Shown in pieces: positions 17,660-39,971 of a stretch of 64,000 nt of DNA (position 1 is its first letter; every line of letters starts with the position of its first letter). Source of the stretch: Betaproteobacteria bacterium (GTDB lineage Bacteria > Pseudomonadota > Gammaproteobacteria > Burkholderiales > CAIKXV01); NCBI GenBank assembly GCA_947458265.1, contig CANGYF010000001.1, positions 62,001 to 126,000 of the forward strand. Reading direction: 5' to 3'. The position numbers and the translations under genes are program-made. The notes beneath the pieces are model-generated. The model did no database searches and had not been told where the DNA came from. It saw only the letters and a program-made list of their open reading frames with translations.

Positions 17660-18913
17660 CTACGAGCGGTCGCCGGCGCGCGCGCGTCCCGACAGCAGCT
17701 GGGCGAGCTCGTCCCGGCTGCCTTCACCCAGGTTGTTCAACGCATGCGAAGGCGCATGCAGCAGCTTGTTGGTGAGCGAACGCGACAGGCGGTCGATCAC
17801 CAGCTTCGGGTCGTCGCCAAGCGTCAGCCGGCGGATGGCCTGTTCGACCTCGCGCTGGCGCGATCGCTCGGCCTCGTCGCGCAGCGCGCGGATCGTCGGT
17901 ACGAGCTCGCGCGTGGATACCCAGTGCATGAAGTCGGACACGCCGAGCGAGATGATCGCCTCGGCATCGTGTACTGCGCCGGCACGCGACTCGCGGCCGA
18001 GCTTGACGATCTCGCCCAGATCGTCGACGGTGTAGAGGAACACGTCGTCCATGCGCGCGGCTTCGGCTTCCACGTCGCGCGGCACGGCCAGATCGACGAT
18101 GAACACCGGCTTGCGCCGCCGTGCCCTCAGCGTGCGCTCGAGCAGGCCCTTGCCGATGATCGGCAGCTGGCTCGCGGTGCAGGTGATGACGATGTCGTAT
18201 TCAGGCAGCCGGTCGGGGAGGTCCGCCAGGCCCATCGCGTTGCCGCCGTGCTTCTCGGCGAGCAGCTGGCCACGGGCCTGGGTGCGATTGGCGAAGCTGA
18301 CCATGCGCGGCTTGCGTGCGCAGAAGTGCGCAGCGCACAGCTCGATCATCTCGCCGGCGCCGATGAACAGCACGCGCTGCTCGGCGATCGACGGGAACAG
18401 CCGCTCGGCCAGCGCGACCGCCGCAGCGGCCATCGATACCGAACTGCCGCCGATCTCGGTCTCGGAACGCACCCGCTTGGCGATCGAGAAGGTACGCTGG
18501 AACAGCTTGTGCAGCAGCGACCCGAGCGTGCCGGCATTCTCGGCCGAGCGCACCGCCTGCTTCAGCTGGCCGAGGATCTGCGGTTCGCCCAGCACCATCG
18601 AGTCGAGGCCGGCGGCGACCCGGAACGCATGGCGCGCGGCGTCCTGCGAGGGCAGCGTGTAGACGTAGGGCTTGAGCGTGTCGCGCTCGAGCTTGTGGTA
18701 GTCGGCCAGCCAGCCGGTCGCGTATTGCGGATCGTTCGTGCTGCAGTAGATCTCGGTGCGGTTGCAGGTCGAGAGGATCGCCGCTTCCGATACCGGACCG
18801 GTCTCCACCAGGTTACGCAATGCCTCGGACATCGTCTCGCCGTTGAAGGCGACCCGCTCGCGCACCTTGACCGGTGCACTCTGGTGGTTGATGCCGACTG
18901 CGTATAGCTGCAT
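17660..18913 (-). CDS. hemA: Glutamyl-tRNA reductase
   Basis: The product is 417 residues, starting [20 protein letters not shown]. The catalytic Cys is in [12 protein letters not shown], the NADPH-binding part is [14 protein letters not shown], and [13 protein letters not shown] follows. It makes glutamate-1-semialdehyde from glutamyl-tRNA, the committed step of the C5 tetrapyrrole pathway for haem and bacteriochlorophyll. An upstream in-frame ATG/TTG extension to 18973 runs through the operator region and is not used. Two PpsR/CrtJ-type sites lie 40-85 bases upstream, so the gene is probably repressed with the photosynthesis genes. Confidence 0.97.
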
Positions 18914-18953
18914 GGATCGTGAACCCGTTGACTGGGGGGCGTGGTGCAGCGGT

Positions 18954-18973
18954 GTGTCAATAGAAATTAACAC
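18954..18973. promoter_or_regulatory. PpsR/CrtJ-type operator 1 upstream of hemA
   Basis: TGT (18955-18957), 12 bases, ACA (18970-18972). The dyad is much better than the minimal pattern: GTGTCAAT and ATTAACAC flank a 4-base centre with 7 of 8 positions complementary. This is the consensus bound by PpsR/CrtJ, the redox- and light-responsive repressor of bch, crt and puc genes. It is about 41 bases upstream of the hemA ATG. Confidence 0.7.
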
Positions 18974-18980
18974 ATCCGGG

Positions 18981-18998
18981 TGTCAATAAGGAAGTACA
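18981..18998. promoter_or_regulatory. PpsR/CrtJ-type operator 2 upstream of hemA
   Basis: TGT (18981-18983), 12 bases, ACA (18996-18998). The left arm TGTCAAT is perfect and the right arm weak. It is separated from the first site by exactly 8 bases (18973-18980), the spacing reported for cooperative CrtJ binding at the Rhodobacter bchC promoter. A TTGACA that could be the -35 element lies on the minus strand inside the site. Confidence 0.6.
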
Positions 18999-19001
18999 AC
19001 C

Positions 19002-19019
19002 GCCGGAAATTTGTCCGGC
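19002..19019. terminator. Small hairpin upstream of hemA
   Basis: GCCGGA and TCCGGC form a 6-bp stem around AATTTG. On the minus strand it sits between a possible small gene (19254-19102) and the hemA operators, and could end a transcript from that side. There is no clear T run, so termination is a guess. Confidence 0.25.
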
Positions 19020-19101
19020 CGACGCCCGGCGGCCGACGCGGATGCGCGCGCGCAACAGGGCCGGGCCCAGCGCATGCTACGCATTCCGTTCCTGACGGTC
19101 G

Positions 19102-19254
19102 CTACAGGCAGGTGCTGCCCAGGGCATCCAGGAACAGGGCCACGCCGGTCACCTGCCAGGCCGCGAAGGCTGCCAGCCCGCCAACGGCGAGCACCAGCAG
19201 CGCGGTGCGGTGTGGCACGACCGGGGCGATGGCGGAATCAGCGAGCCTGTCCAT
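19102..19254 (-). CDS. Possible small membrane protein
   Basis: An ATG at 19254 opens a 50-codon frame ending in TAG. The product has a polar N-terminus (MDRLADSAIAPVVPHRT) and one strongly hydrophobic helix of about 22 residues (LLVLAVGGLAAFAAW onwards), ending LGSTCL. A TATACT lies 10 bases before the ATG on the same strand. No ribosome binding site is evident, so the message may be nearly leaderless, or the frame may not be used. I do not recognise a family. It lies between the MFS transporter and hemA, in the same direction as both. Confidence 0.4.
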   Translation of the reverse strand: MDRLADSAIAPVVPHRTALLVLAVGGLAAFAAWQVTGVALFLDALGSTCL

Positions 19255-19284
19255 GGGCCAAGTATACAGCGGCGGAAATGCGCC

Positions 19285-20541
19285 TCAGCTGGCTCCTGCG
19301 GCGCGCACCCTGGCCGGCGACTCCTCGGCGACCGGCAGCAGCACCAGGGCGCCGAAGACCCCGAGCCCGATCGAGATCATCCAGGCGATGTCGTAGGAGC
19401 CGGTGCTGTCGAACAGGTAGCCGGCGAACCAGGCGCCGAGGAAGCCGCCGATCTGGTGGCTCATGAACACCACGCCGAACAGCGTGGCCAGGTAGCGGGT
19501 GCCGAACAGTTGCGCCACCAGCCCCGAGGTCGGGGGTACCGTCCCGAGCCAGAGGAAGCCGATCATGGCGCCGAACGCGAGCGCCAGCGCCGGGGTCATC
19601 GGCAGCATCAGCATCAGGACGAAAAGCAGCGCGCGCCCTGCGTAGATGCCCGACAGCAGGTGCTTCTTGGCGTAGCGGGAGCAGGCGGCGCCGAACAGGT
19701 AGGAGCCGAAGATGTTGCACAGCCCGATCAGGGCGAGGGCATTGGCCGCCACCGACGCCGAGATGCCGCGGTCGGCGAGGTAGGCCGGCAGGTGGGTTGC
19801 GACGAACGCCACATGGAAGCCGCAGACGAAGAACGACAGCGTGAGCAGCCAGTAGCCCGGGTGCCTGCCGGCCCGCGCGAGGGCGGCCCATGCGCTGCTG
19901 TCCTCGCCGGCCGCCGGTGTCGTGCCGCCGGCATTGGCCTTGTGCGCGAGGCCGAAGGACACCGCGAAGGCTACCGCCATCGCGATCGACAGCAGGATGA
20001 ACGCCCATTGCCAGTCGAAGGTCGATACCAGTGCCTGTGCGCCGGGGACCATCGCGAACTGTCCGAAGGATCCGCCTGCGGTAACCAGCCCGAACGCGGT
20101 GCCGCGCTGGGCCGGGGTCACCACCTGGCCGACCGCCCCCAGCACGACCGGCAGCGTGAGCAGGCTCATGCCCAGGCCGACCACGCCGCCGAGCGTGATC
20201 ACCAGGCTGTTCGGACCCTGCGCGAACCCGGTCAATACCAGCCCCAGGCCGTAGATCAGCGTTCCCGCCGCGATCACGCGGTTCGGGCCGAAGCGGTCGG
20301 ACAGCATCCCGGCCGCAGGCCCGAGCAGCCCGGTCAGCAGCGTCTGCAGCGCGATCGCCAGCCCGAACACCTGGCGTCCGATCTCGAGGTCGGCGGTCAC
20401 TGGCTTCAGGAAGATGCCGAACGACTGTCGCACCCCCATGCCGAGCGTGATCACGATCGCGCCGCACACCAGCACGGTGAGCGCGCCCGCCTGCAGCGGG
20501 CTCTTCTTCGCAACGGTTTGGTTCGAGGCCGTCTGGCTCAT
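19285..20541 (-). CDS. MFS transporter
   Basis: The product is 418 residues with twelve predicted membrane helices and MFS loop motifs (GMLSDRFGPNRVIAAG between helices 2 and 3). GMGVRQSFGIFLKPVTADL near the N-terminus is typical of the oxalate/formate-antiporter-like (OFA) and monocarboxylate branch of MFS found widely in Burkholderiales. It probably exchanges a small organic anion; the substrate cannot be read from sequence. It stands alone between the small frame upstream of hemA and a divergent gene. Confidence 0.85.
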   Translation of the reverse strand: MSQTASNQTVAKKSPLQAGALTVLVCGAIVITLGMGVRQSFGIFLKPVTADLEIGRQVFGLAIALQTLLTGLLGPAAGMLSDRFGPNRVIAAGTLIYGLGLVLTGFAQGPNSLVITLGGVVGLGMSLLTLPVVLGAVGQVVTPAQRGTAFGLVTAGGSFGQFAMVPGAQALVSTFDWQWAFILLSIAMAVAFAVSFGLAHKANAGGTTPAAGEDSSAWAALARAGRHPGYWLLTLSFFVCGFHVAFVATHLPAYLADRGISASVAANALALIGLCNIFGSYLFGAACSRYAKKHLLSGIYAGRALLFVLMLMLPMTPALALAFGAMIGFLWLGTVPPTSGLVAQLFGTRYLATLFGVVFMSHQIGGFLGAWFAGYLFDSTGSYDIAWMISIGLGVFGALVLLPVAEESPARVRAAGAS

Positions 20542-20855
20542 CGTTCAGCGCTCCGGGCACCGCGGCTCGTACCCAGTGTCCGCAGCAGTGCCAGCAGTGT
20601 AGCAAGCGGGGTGGCTGCCTGCGAATCGATGCCTGGCCTCGGTTGCCAACCGGCGGGTATCGCCGGGCCCGGTATTTGCCCTCCGGGCAGGGCAATAGTG
20701 CGCGGACCTTACGCCGCGTCCTCACTACAATACGCGCCGCACGTGCGACGGATACGGTACTGTCCGCCCTGCGTGCGGGCTTCGGTTCCACAAGCGTGTA
20801 GTCGCTGGCGGGCGGAGACGTCCCTGCGGCCCCATGCCAGCCATCGAGGGTAGCC
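20542..20855. other. Divergent intergenic region, no gene found
   Basis: These 314 bases separate the MFS transporter (minus) from the 20856 gene (plus). I see no coding frame worth calling. It holds a 7-bp inverted repeat, TTGCCCT (20676-20682) and AGGGCAA (20689-20695), and a TACAAT hexamer near 20735 that may be a -10 box for the plus-strand pair; a matching -35 is not clear. Confidence 0.4.
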
Positions 20856-21284
20856 ATGAGCGAAGAAGCGCAGCGCAACGTGAACAAGGTGGAGTGGTTG
20901 TGGTTGCTGATGCTCCTCGGCAACGTGATCACCGCCATGCTGGTGATCTGGATCGGACCCACCAACCTCGACGAGTCGTACCAGCGCTTCTCGACCATGG
21001 CATTGGTGGCCGGCGGCGCGCTCGCCCTGCCGACCATGTTCGTGTACCAGAAGTGGAACCAGTTCCGCTACCGCACGCCGCGGCCCGATCCCGAGAGCGA
21101 CACCGACCTGCAGTCGGCCCAGGTCTGGATGATGACCGGCGCGCTGGCGAGCAGTCTGCCGATGTACGTCGGCATCGGCTTCTACATGTTCAGCGGCAAC
21201 AGCACGGTGCTGATGGTGCTCACCGGCATCTCTCTGGGCATCATGATGAACTTCCGCCCGGCGACGCTGTTCGGGACGGCCTGA
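20856..21284 (+). CDS. Uncharacterised small membrane protein
   Basis: The product is 142 residues with four hydrophobic segments (residues about 13-33, 46-63, 90-108, 113-131) and a charged loop between the second and third (RYRTPRPDPESDTDLQSAQ). The start is the ATG at 20856 in the segment GGGTAGCCATG. I do not recognise the family. It ends 8 bases before the photolyase-like gene, so the two are probably one operon, and it may anchor or serve that flavoprotein. Confidence 0.7.
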   Translation: MSEEAQRNVNKVEWLWLLMLLGNVITAMLVIWIGPTNLDESYQRFSTMALVAGGALALPTMFVYQKWNQFRYRTPRPDPESDTDLQSAQVWMMTGALASSLPMYVGIGFYMFSGNSTVLMVLTGISLGIMMNFRPATLFGTA

Positions 21285-21292
21285 TCTCGCCT

Positions 21293-22618
<1,326 letters not shown>

Positions 22619-22701: not shown

Positions 22702-23754
22702 ATGTCCGCGCCGTCCACCGCGTCCCTGCCCGCAGCCATCCCCGAATCGATCCACGTCCCCGGCGGCATGCGCCGGCGGCCGAGCAAGGCGCTGGCAACG
22801 GCCGGGCTGCTGTGCGCGGCTGCCGCTGCACTGCCGGTGCAGGCCGCCGAAGCGCCGTTCCCGGTGCGGCCCATCCGGATGGTGATCCCGCAGTCGCCCG
22901 GCGGCGGTTCCGACTCGATCGGCCGGCTCACCGCGCAGAAGCTGTCCGAGAACTTCGGCCAGACCTTCGTCGTCGACAACCGTCCCGGTGCCGCCGGCAT
23001 GCTCGGTGCCGAGCTGGTACGCCAGGCCACGCCTGACGGCTACACCATCCTGCTGTCGGCGATCGACACCATCACCGCGCCGCTGGTGACGAAGAACGCG
23101 CCGTTCGATCCGGTGAAGCATTTCGCGCCGATCACCCAGCTCACCACCTCGCCCAACGTGATCCTGGTCACGCCGTCGTTCCAGGCGAAGACGATGAAGG
23201 AGCTGGTCGACATCGCACGCGCGAAGCCGAAGCAGATCGACTACGCCTCCTCCGGCATCGGCAGCATGCAGCACCTCGGCGGTGAACTGCTGAACGTGCT
23301 GGCCAAGGTCGAACTGACCCACGTACCCTACAAGGGCGGCGGGCCAGCGCTGGTCGACCTGCTTGCCGGGCGCGTGCCGGTCATGGTGTCGGGGACGCAG
23401 GGCGCGCTGCCGTTCATCAAGTCGGGCAAGGCGCGGCCACTGGCGGTCACCAGCCCGAAGCGCAGCGGCGCGCTGCCCGACGTGCCGACGGTGGCCGAGG
23501 CGCTGGGGCTTCCGGCCTACGAAGCGCTGAACTGGCAGGGCCTGTTCGCGCCGGCCGGTACGCCTGGCCCGGTGGTCAAGCGTCTGGCCGACGAGACGAT
23601 CAAGGTGCTGAACGCCGCGGACGTGAAGGCTCGGCTGGCCGAGCTCGGCTTCGACCCGGTCGGCAACACCCCGGCTGCGTTCAGCGCACTGGTGCTGGCC
23701 GAGCAGCGCAAGTGGATCAAGCTGATCCAGGCGGCGGGCATCAAGCCCGAGTAG
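22702..23754 (+). CDS. Bug family tripartite tricarboxylate transporter binding protein
   Basis: The product is 350 residues. A long N-terminus ends in the signal peptide ALATAGLLCAAAAALPVQA. The mature part has FPVRPIRMVIPQSPGGGSD, the Bug/TctC start, then VDNRPGAAGMLG, THVPYKGGGPALVDLLAGR and a C-terminal alpha/beta lobe. Bug proteins bind small carboxylates in the periplasm; the family is greatly expanded in Burkholderiales, mostly without linked transporter genes, as here. ATG 22702 is preceded by GGAG; ATG 22768 (MRRRPSK) would give a more usual signal peptide. It heads a four-gene run with DUF1989, RidA-like and glutaredoxin-DinB genes. Confidence 0.85.
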   Translation: MSAPSTASLPAAIPESIHVPGGMRRRPSKALATAGLLCAAAAALPVQAAEAPFPVRPIRMVIPQSPGGGSDSIGRLTAQKLSENFGQTFVVDNRPGAAGMLGAELVRQATPDGYTILLSAIDTITAPLVTKNAPFDPVKHFAPITQLTTSPNVILVTPSFQAKTMKELVDIARAKPKQIDYASSGIGSMQHLGGELLNVLAKVELTHVPYKGGGPALVDLLAGRVPVMVSGTQGALPFIKSGKARPLAVTSPKRSGALPDVPTVAEALGLPAYEALNWQGLFAPAGTPGPVVKRLADETIKVLNAADVKARLAELGFDPVGNTPAAFSALVLAEQRKWIKLIQAAGIKPE

Positions 23755-23815: not shown

Positions 23816-24508
23816 ATGGCGAAGGCAACAGCAGCGAAGAAGGCGCCGGGGACGGCGGCCTTGCCCAGGCCGGTAGTGCCGAAGATCGTCGCACCGCGCG
23901 GCTACCGGCAGGTGTCCTCGATCCTGGTCGACGCTGGCGGTTCATGGGGCGCGAAGCTGCTCAAGGGGCAGGTGGTGCGCTTCATCGACCTCGAGGGCCA
24001 GCAGGCGGTCGACTTCCTCTGCTACAACGCCAGCGACACGCGCGACCGCTACAACGCGGCCAACACGATGAAGATGGCCGAGAACCTCTACCTGAACACC
24101 GGCACGGTGCTCTACGGCGAATATGCGACGCCGCTGATGAAGGTGGTCGCGTCTAACTGCCCGAACCACGACACCATCGGCGGCTGCTGCAGCGTCGAGA
24201 TCAACCAGCTGCGCTACAACCGGCGCACCCACAGCTGCCGCTCGAACTTCCTGCACGAACTGGGCAAGTTCCGCATGGGCGAGCCGGACGTGGTTGCCAA
24301 CGTCAACTGGTTCATGAGTGTGCCGATCGGTGCAGACGGCCACATGGCGATCTCGGACAGCCCGTCGAAGCCGGGTGCGTTCGTGGACGTCGAGGCGCTC
24401 ACCGATGTGCTGGCGGTGATCTCCAACTGCCCGCAGAAGTACAACCCGGCCTGCGGCTATAACCCGACGCCGGTGCAGGTCGAGGTCTATTCGAAGTCCG
24501 GGCGCTGA
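23816..24508 (+). CDS. DUF1989 (urea carboxylase-associated) family protein
   Basis: The product is 230 residues. After a basic, Ala-rich leader (about 20 residues) it has GQVVRFIDLEGQQAVDFLCYNA, NCPNHDTIGGCCS, NVNWFMSVPIG and ISNCPQKYNPACGYNPTPVQ, all DUF1989 marks. Members accompany urea carboxylase/allophanate hydrolase genes; their reaction is not well defined and a metal site of Cys and His is likely. The gene is 61 bases after the Bug gene and 43 before the RidA-like gene. Confidence 0.85.
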   Translation: MAKATAAKKAPGTAALPRPVVPKIVAPRGYRQVSSILVDAGGSWGAKLLKGQVVRFIDLEGQQAVDFLCYNASDTRDRYNAANTMKMAENLYLNTGTVLYGEYATPLMKVVASNCPNHDTIGGCCSVEINQLRYNRRTHSCRSNFLHELGKFRMGEPDVVANVNWFMSVPIGADGHMAISDSPSKPGAFVDVEALTDVLAVISNCPQKYNPACGYNPTPVQVEVYSKSGR

Positions 24509-24551: not shown

Positions 24552-24950
24552 ATGCCGATCACCCGCGGCAACCCGCCTAGCCACAAGCACATGCGGGCCA
24601 CCGTCTACAACCACTTCGTCCGGGTCGACCAGCCGAAGAGCATGATCTTCATCTCCGGCCAGCTCGCGCGCGGCGAAGACGGCCAGATGGTCGGCGGCAA
24701 CAGCATGCTCGAGCAGTCGCGCCAGGTGCTGCGCAACATCCAGATTGCGCTCGAGGCTGCAGGTGCGACGATGGCCGACGTCGTGTGGACCACCGTGTTC
24801 ACCACCGACATGCGCGAATTCCGCGAGATCGTCGCCGCGCGCGAGGAGTTCTGGCGCGACAACCTGCCCACGAGCACGATGATCGAGATCAACCATCTCA
24901 CCGAGCCGGCAGCCAAGATCGAAGTCCAGGTCATCGCGGCGGTCGCATGA
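24552..24950 (+). CDS. RidA (YjgF/YER057c/UK114) family protein
   Basis: The product is 132 residues, a normal Rid length, with FISGQLARGEDGQMVGG, QSRQVLRNIQIALEAAGA and VWTTVFTTDMREF. In true RidA imine deaminases a conserved Arg lies in the P-A-R-S-C-V-E-V stretch. The matching stretch here, PTSTMIEI, has no Arg, so this is a member of one of the divergent Rid subfamilies with unknown chemistry. AGGAG precedes the ATG. The stop overlaps the next gene's start (ATGA, 24947-24950). Confidence 0.88.
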   Translation: MPITRGNPPSHKHMRATVYNHFVRVDQPKSMIFISGQLARGEDGQMVGGNSMLEQSRQVLRNIQIALEAAGATMADVVWTTVFTTDMREFREIVAAREEFWRDNLPTSTMIEINHLTEPAAKIEVQVIAAVA

Positions 24951-25729
24951 GCGCCCCGTCGGCGGAACCGGGCTACGTCCTGTACGTCCAGCCTGGCTGA
25001 AGCAGCTGTCTCCGGGCGAAGGAGTTTCTTTCGCGACACCAGATTCCCTACCGGGTCGCCGATATCCGGCGCGACCCGGCCGACCTTGCCGCGCTGCATG
25101 CGTTCGGCGTGCGCAACCTGCCGGTGCTCGCGCGCGGCAGCGAATTCGTGTTCGGGCAGCAACTCGCCGACGTCGCGCGCTTCGTCGGCGTCACACTGGA
25201 AGCTCATGTGCCGCTGGCGCCAGAGGTGCTCATGCAGCGCTGGACGGCCATCCTGCGCAGCACGCGGCGCTTGTGCGAGCAGTTGCCGCCCCAGGCGATC
25301 GGCGAGCCGCCGATCGAGGGACGGCCGGGCACGCTGGGCGAACTCGCCTGGCATGTGTTCGGCATCGGCGATGGCTTCATCGAATGCGTCGAAGGCCGCG
25401 AGCGCGACTGGGTGGGCGTGTCGATGCGTTTTCCCGAAGGTGGCGTACCCGACGGACGCATCGCGCGCGACTATGGAGACGGCGTGATCGACCGGCTCGA
25501 ACAGTGGTGGCGGGCGGCCGATGCCGCGAAGCGCAGCGGTACCGGCGAGGTCGACACCCCCCAGGGCCGGGTCGAGCTCCATGCCTTCCTCGAGCGTCAG
25601 ACCTGGCACAGCGGCCAGCACGCCCGCCAGCTCGCCGACGTGATCGAACGCCACGGCGGCAAGCCCGAATGGCCCACCCGCGACCGCGAACTTCAGGGCC
25701 TGCCCATGCCTGTCGCCGTCTGGGGCTGA
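24947..25729 (+). CDS. Putative selenoprotein: glutaredoxin-like domain with in-frame UGA (UxxC) fused to DinB domain
   Basis: From the ATG at 24947 the frame reads M-S-A-P-S-A-E-P-G-Y-V-L-Y-V-Q-P-G, then TGA (24998-25000), then S-S-C-L-R-A-K-E-F-L and on without a stop to 25729: 260 residues if TGA is read through. The TGA falls exactly on the first residue of the redox motif, giving U18-S-S-C21 instead of CxxC. Both flanks fit a glutaredoxin fold (YVLYVQPG before; RVADIRRD, the cis-Pro region VRNLPVL and FGQQLADVARFVG after). Residues about 92-255 form a DinB-like four-helix domain with metal His in LAWHVFGIGDG and TWHSGQHARQL. The start overlaps the RidA-like stop. A SECIS-like hairpin follows the TGA. 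The alternative is a nonsense mutation of a TGC, or a sequence error. Confidence 0.7.
25016..25034 (+). promoter_or_regulatory. Candidate bacterial SECIS hairpin
   Basis: GCGAAGGA (25016-25023) can pair with TTTCTTTCGC-side bases down to 25034: five Watson-Crick pairs GCGAA/TTCGC, then G-U, G-C and A-U, leaving loop GTT; or, opened, loop GGAGTTTCT. Either way a G is at the start of the loop. The loop begins 20-23 bases after the TGA at 24998-25000, inside the 16-37 base window of bacterial SECIS elements read by SelB. Seen by hand only; folding energies were not computed. Confidence 0.55.
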
Positions 25730-25733
25730 CGCC

Positions 25734-25827
25734 GAAATCCGGGTCAGACACGGATTGAATCCGAAGCCCAGGTCGAAACCCGGGTCAGACACGCATTTGC
25801 AGGAAATCCGTGTCTGACCCGGATTTC
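25734..25827. repeat. GGGTCAGACACG inverted-repeat element
   Basis: The 23 bases at 25734-25756 are repeated as an exact reverse complement at 25805-25827. Between them, 25775-25797 is a third, imperfect direct copy. The shared core is GGGTCAGACACG. The right arm covers the MATE gene's stop codon, and the left arm begins 5 bases after the glutaredoxin-DinB stop, so the folded RNA could end transcripts from both sides. A related element lies at 39682-39736, so this is a dispersed family rather than a private terminator. Confidence 0.8.
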
Positions 25828-39675: not shown

Positions 39676-39681
39676 AGAAAT

Positions 39682-39736
39682 CCGGGTCAGAGACGCTTTT
39701 CCGGATGCGCAACCCGGAAATTCGTCTCTGACCCGG
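39682..39736. repeat. GGGTCAGAGACG inverted-repeat element
   Basis: CCGGGTCAGAGACG (39682-39695) is repeated as an exact reverse complement at 39723-39736, with 27 bases between. It differs by one base from the core of the element at 25734-25827 (GACACG versus GAGACG) and sits likewise just after a stop codon, here thiC's. It may act as the thiC terminator. The remaining bases up to 39971 show no gene I would call. Confidence 0.75.
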
Positions 39737-39971
39737 AGGCTGCCCTGCTCGGAGCGGAGCCTGATGCCGGTTGGTGCCCGAGCCTGTGCGTGAACCAACG
39801 CACTGGGAATGTCATCGAGGGAAAGGGCGACCCGTTGCCATCGAGCACTCGCCAGACATCCATGACCGCCGGCAGTTTGAATCGGCCTGGGTTTTGCGAT
39901 CTCGATGAATCTGCATCGCCGGGCCGTTTTTGCGTCTTCCTTCCAGCTCGACGCGCAGTCACTCTGCGCGC

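Follow-up and report, generated by a model that had tools for sequence, protein, structure and literature searches.

Does the in-frame TGA at positions 24998-25000 of the window end a gene, or is it read as selenocysteine (Sec)? The window is a stretch of 64,000 nucleotides from a Betaproteobacteria bacterium of the order Burkholderiales. A first-pass annotation, made from the letters alone, proposed Sec at this codon in a protein joining a glutaredoxin domain to a DinB domain, referred to here as Grx-DinB. Comparison between genomes strongly supports both the recoding of this UGA as Sec and the fused architecture, and we put the probability of this reading at about 93%.

The reading frame and its homologues

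The Grx-DinB gene is complete at 24947-25729 on the forward strand and would encode 260 amino acids with the TGA read as Sec. Its start ATG at 24947 overlaps the TGA stop of an upstream RidA-like gene (24552-24950). The in-frame TGA is codon 18, it is followed by codons for Ser-Ser-Cys, and the frame is then open through to the TGA stop at 25727-25729. The TGA thus occupies the first-Cys position of a CxSC motif, giving a proposed U-S-S-C. A Pfam Glutaredoxin domain (PF00462, 36.6 bits, cut-off 22.9) spans the TGA at residues 11-68 (24977-25150), and this half of the protein has both Glutaredoxin and NrdH-like profile matches. A DinB_2 domain of the S-transferase-like type (PF12867, 36.1 bits, cut-off 24.8) is found at residues 103-229 (25253-25633). 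The predicted DinB identity is based on this Pfam match and on a pattern of histidines; a direct sequence search of the PDB with the DinB half gave a weak match to 3di5 (E 0.068), ranked behind two WYL-domain chains.

A default ORF caller reports a 206-aa ORF from GTG 25109, a start that lies within the glutaredoxin domain, and gene callers would in general truncate a Grx-DinB selenoprotein at the UGA. The first-pass annotation had described the overlapping ATG, the TGA at codon 18 with S-S-C next, its place at the first redox Cys with flanks that fit glutaredoxin, and the likelihood that ordinary annotation would call only DinB from about 25109; all of this agrees with the sequence and the profile matches. 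It had also held that homologues without the glutaredoxin N-terminus would count against the joined protein. In an alignment of 58 rows, which draws on 42 of the 80 named loci described below, every member matches PF00462 (E<=0.01); DinB_2 is matched at the same threshold by 50 of the 58 and the other eight fall below it.

Relatives were collected by a scan of one genome per species in 84,980 species. The scan found 124; the best 80 became the named loci, and TGA is present at the codon-18 position in 80/80 of these best 80 of 124. A second scan pattern, LRxKEFLS-like in all codons, selects residues and not codons and may miss Cys forms that do not have KEFLS. Many of the relatives come from metagenome bins, and they are not independent of one another. 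Relatives with as little as 36% identity still have the TGA; it is therefore not a sequencing error, and the TGC that re-sequencing might have revealed is rejected. Among 60 relatives searched there are 21 full-length matches; 20 have a single internal stop, a TGA, and the one in G025 has no internal stop.

The family is present in 35 of 399 genomes of the order (E <= 1e-20; one C-terminal fragment, G295:C51, is left out of this count). The TGA form occurs in 27 of these, and the eight others all have a Cys codon at the TGA position. Cys is likewise found there in the five plasmid homologues read, from 13 plasmid records matched. A draw across the phylum is sparser, with the family in 2/398 genomes (E <= 1e-15), the window's own among the two. 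Residue 18, as Sec or Cys, and C21 are invariant in all 58 alignment rows, eight Cys forms included. This is the pattern that the first-pass annotation had said would support Sec, with Cys in some relatives and UGA in others.

In phylogenetic trees the Sec forms need two changes, corresponding to one large Sec group and to L138, from genome G533. This distant TGA form, found in a different family of the phylum, clusters with Cys forms, and its hairpin differs. When the Sec rows are constrained to form one group, p-AU is 0.04 and branches are long; a second origin of Sec in L138 is therefore only suggested. The first tree has 59 rows and covers 38 of the 80 named loci; the second has 38 rows and covers 19, with L021 and L150 also left out.

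A bSECIS-like hairpin and the Sec machinery

A bSECIS-like hairpin is present at 25016-25034 on the forward strand. It has an 8 bp stem (25016-25023 with 25027-25034) and a GUU loop (25024-25026). The loop lies 23 nt from the TGA and the stem begins 15 nt after it; the first-pass annotation had started a hairpin with a G-led loop 20-23 bases after the TGA, which holds for the loop and is wrong for the stem. Section 5 of a 2026 catalogue of selenoproteins (PMC13188914) gives limits for bSECIS elements of a 3-9 nt loop, a 4-16 bp stem, G in the first two loop bases, a spacing of 16-37 nt and a minimum free energy of at most -7.5 kcal/mol. The window hairpin lies within them (GUU, 8 bp, 23 nt, -12.2 kcal/mol for 53 nt). 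A fitting stem of at least 7 bp is found at 137/1232 window TGAs, and one of at least 8 bp at 60/1232 (both strands, Sec TGA included), so the weight of the hairpin rests on its conservation. The energy limit is satisfied at 1226/1232 window TGAs, and the folding z of 0.23 (window, 53-nt fold) or 1.05 (a paralogue in the same genome) is not significant for single sequences; codon constraint, not energy, is therefore used here as evidence.

A fitting stem of at least 7 bp is present in 88/88 Sec forms against 1/13 Cys forms. The Sec forms counted are the 80 named loci, seven others and the window, and many of these rows are close kin. Six of the 88 miss the -7.5 kcal/mol limit in a 60-nt window, and in L050 the minimum-energy fold favours a different pairing. 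L138 has a fitting stem, but its loop and spacing differ and the hairpin there is uncertain. Codons 26-29 are GAG, TTT, CTT and TCG in 81/81 Sec-form genes; at codon 25, 77 genes have AAA and four have AAG, which keeps the pair as G-U. Elsewhere in the same genes TTT makes up 22% of Phe codons and CTT 9% of Leu codons. Beyond the hairpin, no residue kept in at least 95% of the 81 genes is always encoded by one codon; the top share is 0.91 (Met and Trp excluded). This comparison does not include L138, whose codons depart (CTA for CTT). The stem hardly varies. A search of the 4.0-Mb genome for TGA-N16-hairpin with up to three mismatches gives two occurrences, both in Grx-DinB genes, and none for a reversed-pattern control. 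As a family feature the predicted hairpin is very strong evidence, far beyond chance, while alone it proves little.

One Cys form, on a Caballeronia plasmid (L149 4001-4750), retains AAA-GAG-TTT-CTT right after the Cys motif, close to the hairpin codons of the Sec forms. It is possibly a Sec-to-Cys conversion.

The window's genome (4.01 Mb, 33 contigs) contains selA, selB and selC, genes whose absence the first-pass annotation had named as grounds for giving up Sec, and also selD, which itself has an in-frame TGA. The paralogue, a second Grx-DinB gene with a TGA, is located on contig C18 at 21780-22523, directly upstream of selA (20392-21729), selB (18472-20367) and selC (18315-18406) and on the same strand. 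Across the order, selB over cut-off is found in 25/27 TGA-form genomes, 3/8 Cys-form genomes and 74/364 genomes that do not have the family (Fisher p 2e-14 for TGA-form against family-less and 0.003 for TGA-form against Cys-form, kinship ignored). The two TGA-form genomes without selB, G009 and G061, are both 83-84% complete. Of the 25 TGA-form genomes with selB, 22 carry a family copy within 7 kb of it on one contig, and the remaining three have the two genes on different contigs. None of the three Cys-form genomes with selB has a family copy on the selB contig, and selA was not found in any of the five Cys-form genomes without selB. G533, the only distant genome with the TGA form that the phylum search gave, has selA. 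Grx-DinB appears to be a selenoprotein resident in the Sec loci of Burkholderiales.

Two other readings of the codon are both very improbable. A UGA that is suppressed or read through with another amino acid, such as Trp, has in its favour that the inserted residue cannot be told by comparison alone, but it is rejected because the exchange partner is Cys and not Trp, Grx-DinB is linked to selA, selB and selC, the hairpin geometry fits a bSECIS and the TGA with hairpin is restricted to two family genes in the genome. A true stop, with a short N-terminal peptide ahead of it and an independent DinB protein from GTG 25109, or else a pseudogene, would suit a genome in which TGA is a normal stop (as in the RidA-like gene) and in which a 206-aa ORF begins at that GTG; it is rejected because the glutaredoxin domain is conserved on either side of the TGA in 80/80 kept loci (best 80 of 124), Cys replaces TGA in genomes of which 5/8 do not have selB, the hairpin codons are frozen and the GTG falls within the glutaredoxin domain. 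Insertion of Sec at codon 18, as first proposed, is supported by conservation, by the Sec machinery and by the hairpin.

Genomic neighbourhoods and the Sec trait

The window copy is preceded on the same strand by three probable operon partners. These are the RidA-like gene (24552-24950; PF01042, 91.4 bits), a DUF1989 gene of the urea-amidolyase-associated type (23816-24508; PF09347, 180.6 bits; TIGR03424 230.8 bits, below its cut-off of 284.7) and a TctC/Bug solute-binding protein gene (22702-23754, start chosen by eye; PF03401, 233.6 bits). A convergent MATE transporter gene lies downstream. The window copy probably serves this catabolic operon (TctC-DUF1989-RidA). RidA occurs near Grx-DinB in 7/80 and DUF1989 in 5/80 of the named loci (best 80 of 124). 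Four of these loci are close kin of the window, but both genes also occur, in another orientation, in L062, where the protein shares 44% identity with that of the window. A palindromic motif, GTGTCTGACCCGGATT, is repeated at 25736-25825 and 39679-39739 of the window; allowing up to three mismatches, the window has seven matches where 0.38 are expected, and five of the seven lie immediately downstream of the Grx-DinB gene.

The more common setting is a Sec locus. Among the named loci (best 80 of 124), MnmA is found upstream on the same strand in at least 55, and downstream on the same strand selA is found in at least 46 and selB in at least 41; a TrxR-like gene follows selB in at least 36 and a UGSC-family gene is nearby in at least 20. 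These counts are lower bounds because contig ends cut loci. Neighbouring ORFs come from a mechanical caller, shadow frames included; MnmA, SelA and SelB were first named by eye, and one representative of each is over its NCBIfam cut-off, while RsuA and Nudix were named by eye only. The UGSC representative matches PF24696, and the TrxR-like representative matches TIGR01292 with E 1.7e-63, below its cut-off. Rfam identifies tRNA-Sec in three of eight named loci examined. The TrxR-like flavoprotein is divergent and has a CADC motif (L050 14285-15190). It may feed electrons to the Grx-DinB selenoprotein; the ORFs read in the 1.8 kb past selC in the window's genome do not include it.

The UGSC-family gene is a candidate second selenoprotein of the cluster. 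Of 20 UGSC frames beside Grx-DinB, 19 carry a TGA within the frame at UG[A/S]C, in many cases UGAC, mostly in a protein with a long C-terminal part (L047, L048, L050, L051, L059, L071, L076, L077, L080, L085, L089, L103, L106, L107, L113 and others). In L054 two tandem UGSC-type units lie directly upstream of Grx-DinB, from -3350 to -58 relative to the gene; the first has a TGA (GD-U-GSC) and, judging by the ORF list, the second seems interrupted too. Several loci (L042, L051, L054, L063, L070, L071, L076, L078, L079, L083 and L103) come from metagenome bins titled Bordetella parapertussis or Chitinophaga pinensis; the family proteins in these bins are like those of uncultured Betaproteobacteria, and the names look wrong.

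The 13 plasmid records with Cys homologues, five of them read, are from Roseomonas, Variovorax, Caballeronia and Rhizobium; where annotated, these homologues are called DinB or glutaredoxin-domain proteins. The Roseomonas Cys form is beside amidase, isochorismatase and ABC-transporter genes, and the Variovorax form is beside a TctC-type binding protein. The surroundings in Caballeronia and Rhizobium (regulators, chemotaxis, esterase fragments) are less informative.

In a 2006 account (PMC1794560), the alpha-, beta- and pseudomonad Sec users known at that time are described with selA-selB-selC and a neighbouring fdhA, their only selenoprotein gene. This picture contrasts with the 22/27 TGA-form genomes in which a Grx-DinB copy lies within 7 kb of selB. 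FdhA of the TIGR01553 type, the only type searched for, is over cut-off in 6/27 TGA-form genomes, each time with a TGA, and in 21/27 it is not. Ten more of the genomes have only partial matches, below cut-off and with no stops, and the window's genome has no TIGR01553 match at 1e-40. SelD contains a TGA in 25/27 TGA-form genomes; the SelD of G061 has no stop and none was found in G012. Genome G001 has two selB genes, one (C282) 3 kb from a TGA-containing fdhA and the other (C223) beside Grx-DinB, an arrangement that would fit cassettes moving with their own selenoprotein.

Proposed function and comparison with known systems

Three histidines of the DinB half are proposed metal ligands, His136 (25352-25354) and the HxxxH pair His221 (25607-25609) and His225 (25619-25621). 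All three are invariant in the 58 alignment rows, eight Cys forms included, which argues for a catalytic metal site. By pattern they correspond to the putative ligands of the S-transferase-like/DinB superfamily. This superfamily is said, in the title of one study, to include glutathione S-transferases. Glutathione would be a likely thiol partner in Proteobacteria. The same three-His pattern is present in the bacillithiol transferase BstA as H67, H160 and H164 (PMC5815605). In that work, eight bacillithiol transferases of the DinB superfamily are metal-dependent by an EDTA test, and their three conserved His might hold the metal.

We suggest the following scheme. Codon 18 would be read as Sec by the genome's own SelA, SelB, tRNA-Sec and SelD, directed by the stem-loop with its GUU loop 23 nt downstream of the UGA. 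The product would have an N-terminal NrdH/YruB-like glutaredoxin domain with a Sec-Ser-Ser-Cys site, and a C-terminal DinB domain with a putative three-His metal site. This metal site would activate a thiol, probably glutathione, or else bind an electrophile or thiol adduct arising in a catabolic pathway. The Sec-Cys pair would reduce or resolve the resulting adduct with electrons from glutathione or, where present, from the TrxR-like flavoprotein encoded after selB. The protein would act in pathways that make reactive intermediates; the paralogue travels with selA-selB-selC. Coupling of metal-site thiol chemistry in DinB to Sec-Cys reduction in the glutaredoxin domain is a tentative proposal, to which we give somewhat less than even odds. 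The function would be thiol/selenol chemistry, perhaps catabolic or detoxifying.

The strongest competitor is that Grx-DinB works as a general thiol-disulfide or peroxide reductase, its DinB domain serving only to bind metal or dimerise. The Glutaredoxin and NrdH-like matches are consistent with it, and section 7 of PMC13188914 states that most uncharacterised selenoproteins are thought to be redox-functional. The invariance of the His triad in 58/58 rows, Cys forms among them, argues against a passive DinB domain, and we regard this alternative as possible and rather less probable than the coupled chemistry. Less probable again, and in our view unlikely, is a role in selenium metabolism and not catabolism, through delivery or reduction of selenium for SelD or sensing of Sec supply. 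It would account for the copy within 7 kb of selB in 22/25 selB-positive TGA-form genomes, and for MnmA upstream (55/80) and the TrxR-like gene downstream of selB (36/80; best 80 of 124). Yet selB is present in 102/399 genomes of the order and 74 of these 102 do not have the family, Cys forms occur without selA (5/5 tested), and the window copy and the Roseomonas and Variovorax plasmid Cys forms lie amid transport and catabolic genes, as do, judged by eye, several Sec loci without a nearby selA.

Grx-DinB could be a self-contained selenol enzyme, with fused Sec and DinB metal acting in cis and not only through a diffusible thiol, and a cassette of Grx-DinB with selA, selB and selC, not FdhA, could sustain the Sec trait in these Burkholderiales alongside Sec-SelD. 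This broader proposal is speculative and we consider it unlikely as it stands. The family also offers a natural Sec/Cys pair for asking what Sec gains in a redox domain tied to a metal-dependent, thiol-transferase-like domain.

Grx-DinB is apparently an undescribed selenoprotein architecture, as the first-pass annotation had supposed, within the searches made of NCBIfam, the catalogue and the open literature. No NCBIfam 20.0 model is over cut-off for the window protein or the paralogue (paralogue matches listed to 1e-5). Table 1 of the catalogue (PMC13188914; 119 families or subfamilies) lists Grx, UXX-star and a HUGP/GUXX-star fusion and no DinB, and the word DinB is absent from its main text and from that of the deep-Sep paper. 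Searches of the open literature that paired selenoprotein with DinB found no Grx-DinB selenoprotein, the matches being unrelated by title and abstract; those on selenocysteine, Burkholderiales and glutaredoxin gave nothing on Grx-DinB and, by title, plant genomes.

Selenoprotein glutaredoxins are generally known as stand-alone Grx proteins. Like Grx-DinB, the selenoprotein glutaredoxin of the catalogue's Table 1 (PMC13188914) is a PF00462 protein with Sec for the first Cys of CxxC; Grx-DinB differs in its DinB fusion, its location in Burkholderiales Sec loci and its frozen hairpin. The UXX-star families (NF041212, NF041211, NF041114, and the HUGP/GUXX-star fusion NF045501) are also Grx-like with Sec, one of them a fusion, whereas Grx-DinB has a UxSC motif and a DinB partner. 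Membership of UXX-star is rejected at 27.7, 20.4 and 14.6 bits against cut-offs of 66 (NF041212), 100 (NF041211) and 72 (NF041114), and the window protein is also below the NF045501 cut-off. The selA-selB-selC loci with fdhA in Betaproteobacteria, as described in PMC1794560, have a selenoprotein gene beside the Sec machinery, as here, where the neighbour is Grx-DinB. The bacillithiol transferases BstA-H described in PMC5815605 share with Grx-DinB the DinB domain and three His including HxxxH; they use diffusible bacillithiol, whereas Grx-DinB has a fused domain with a predicted Sec redox site.
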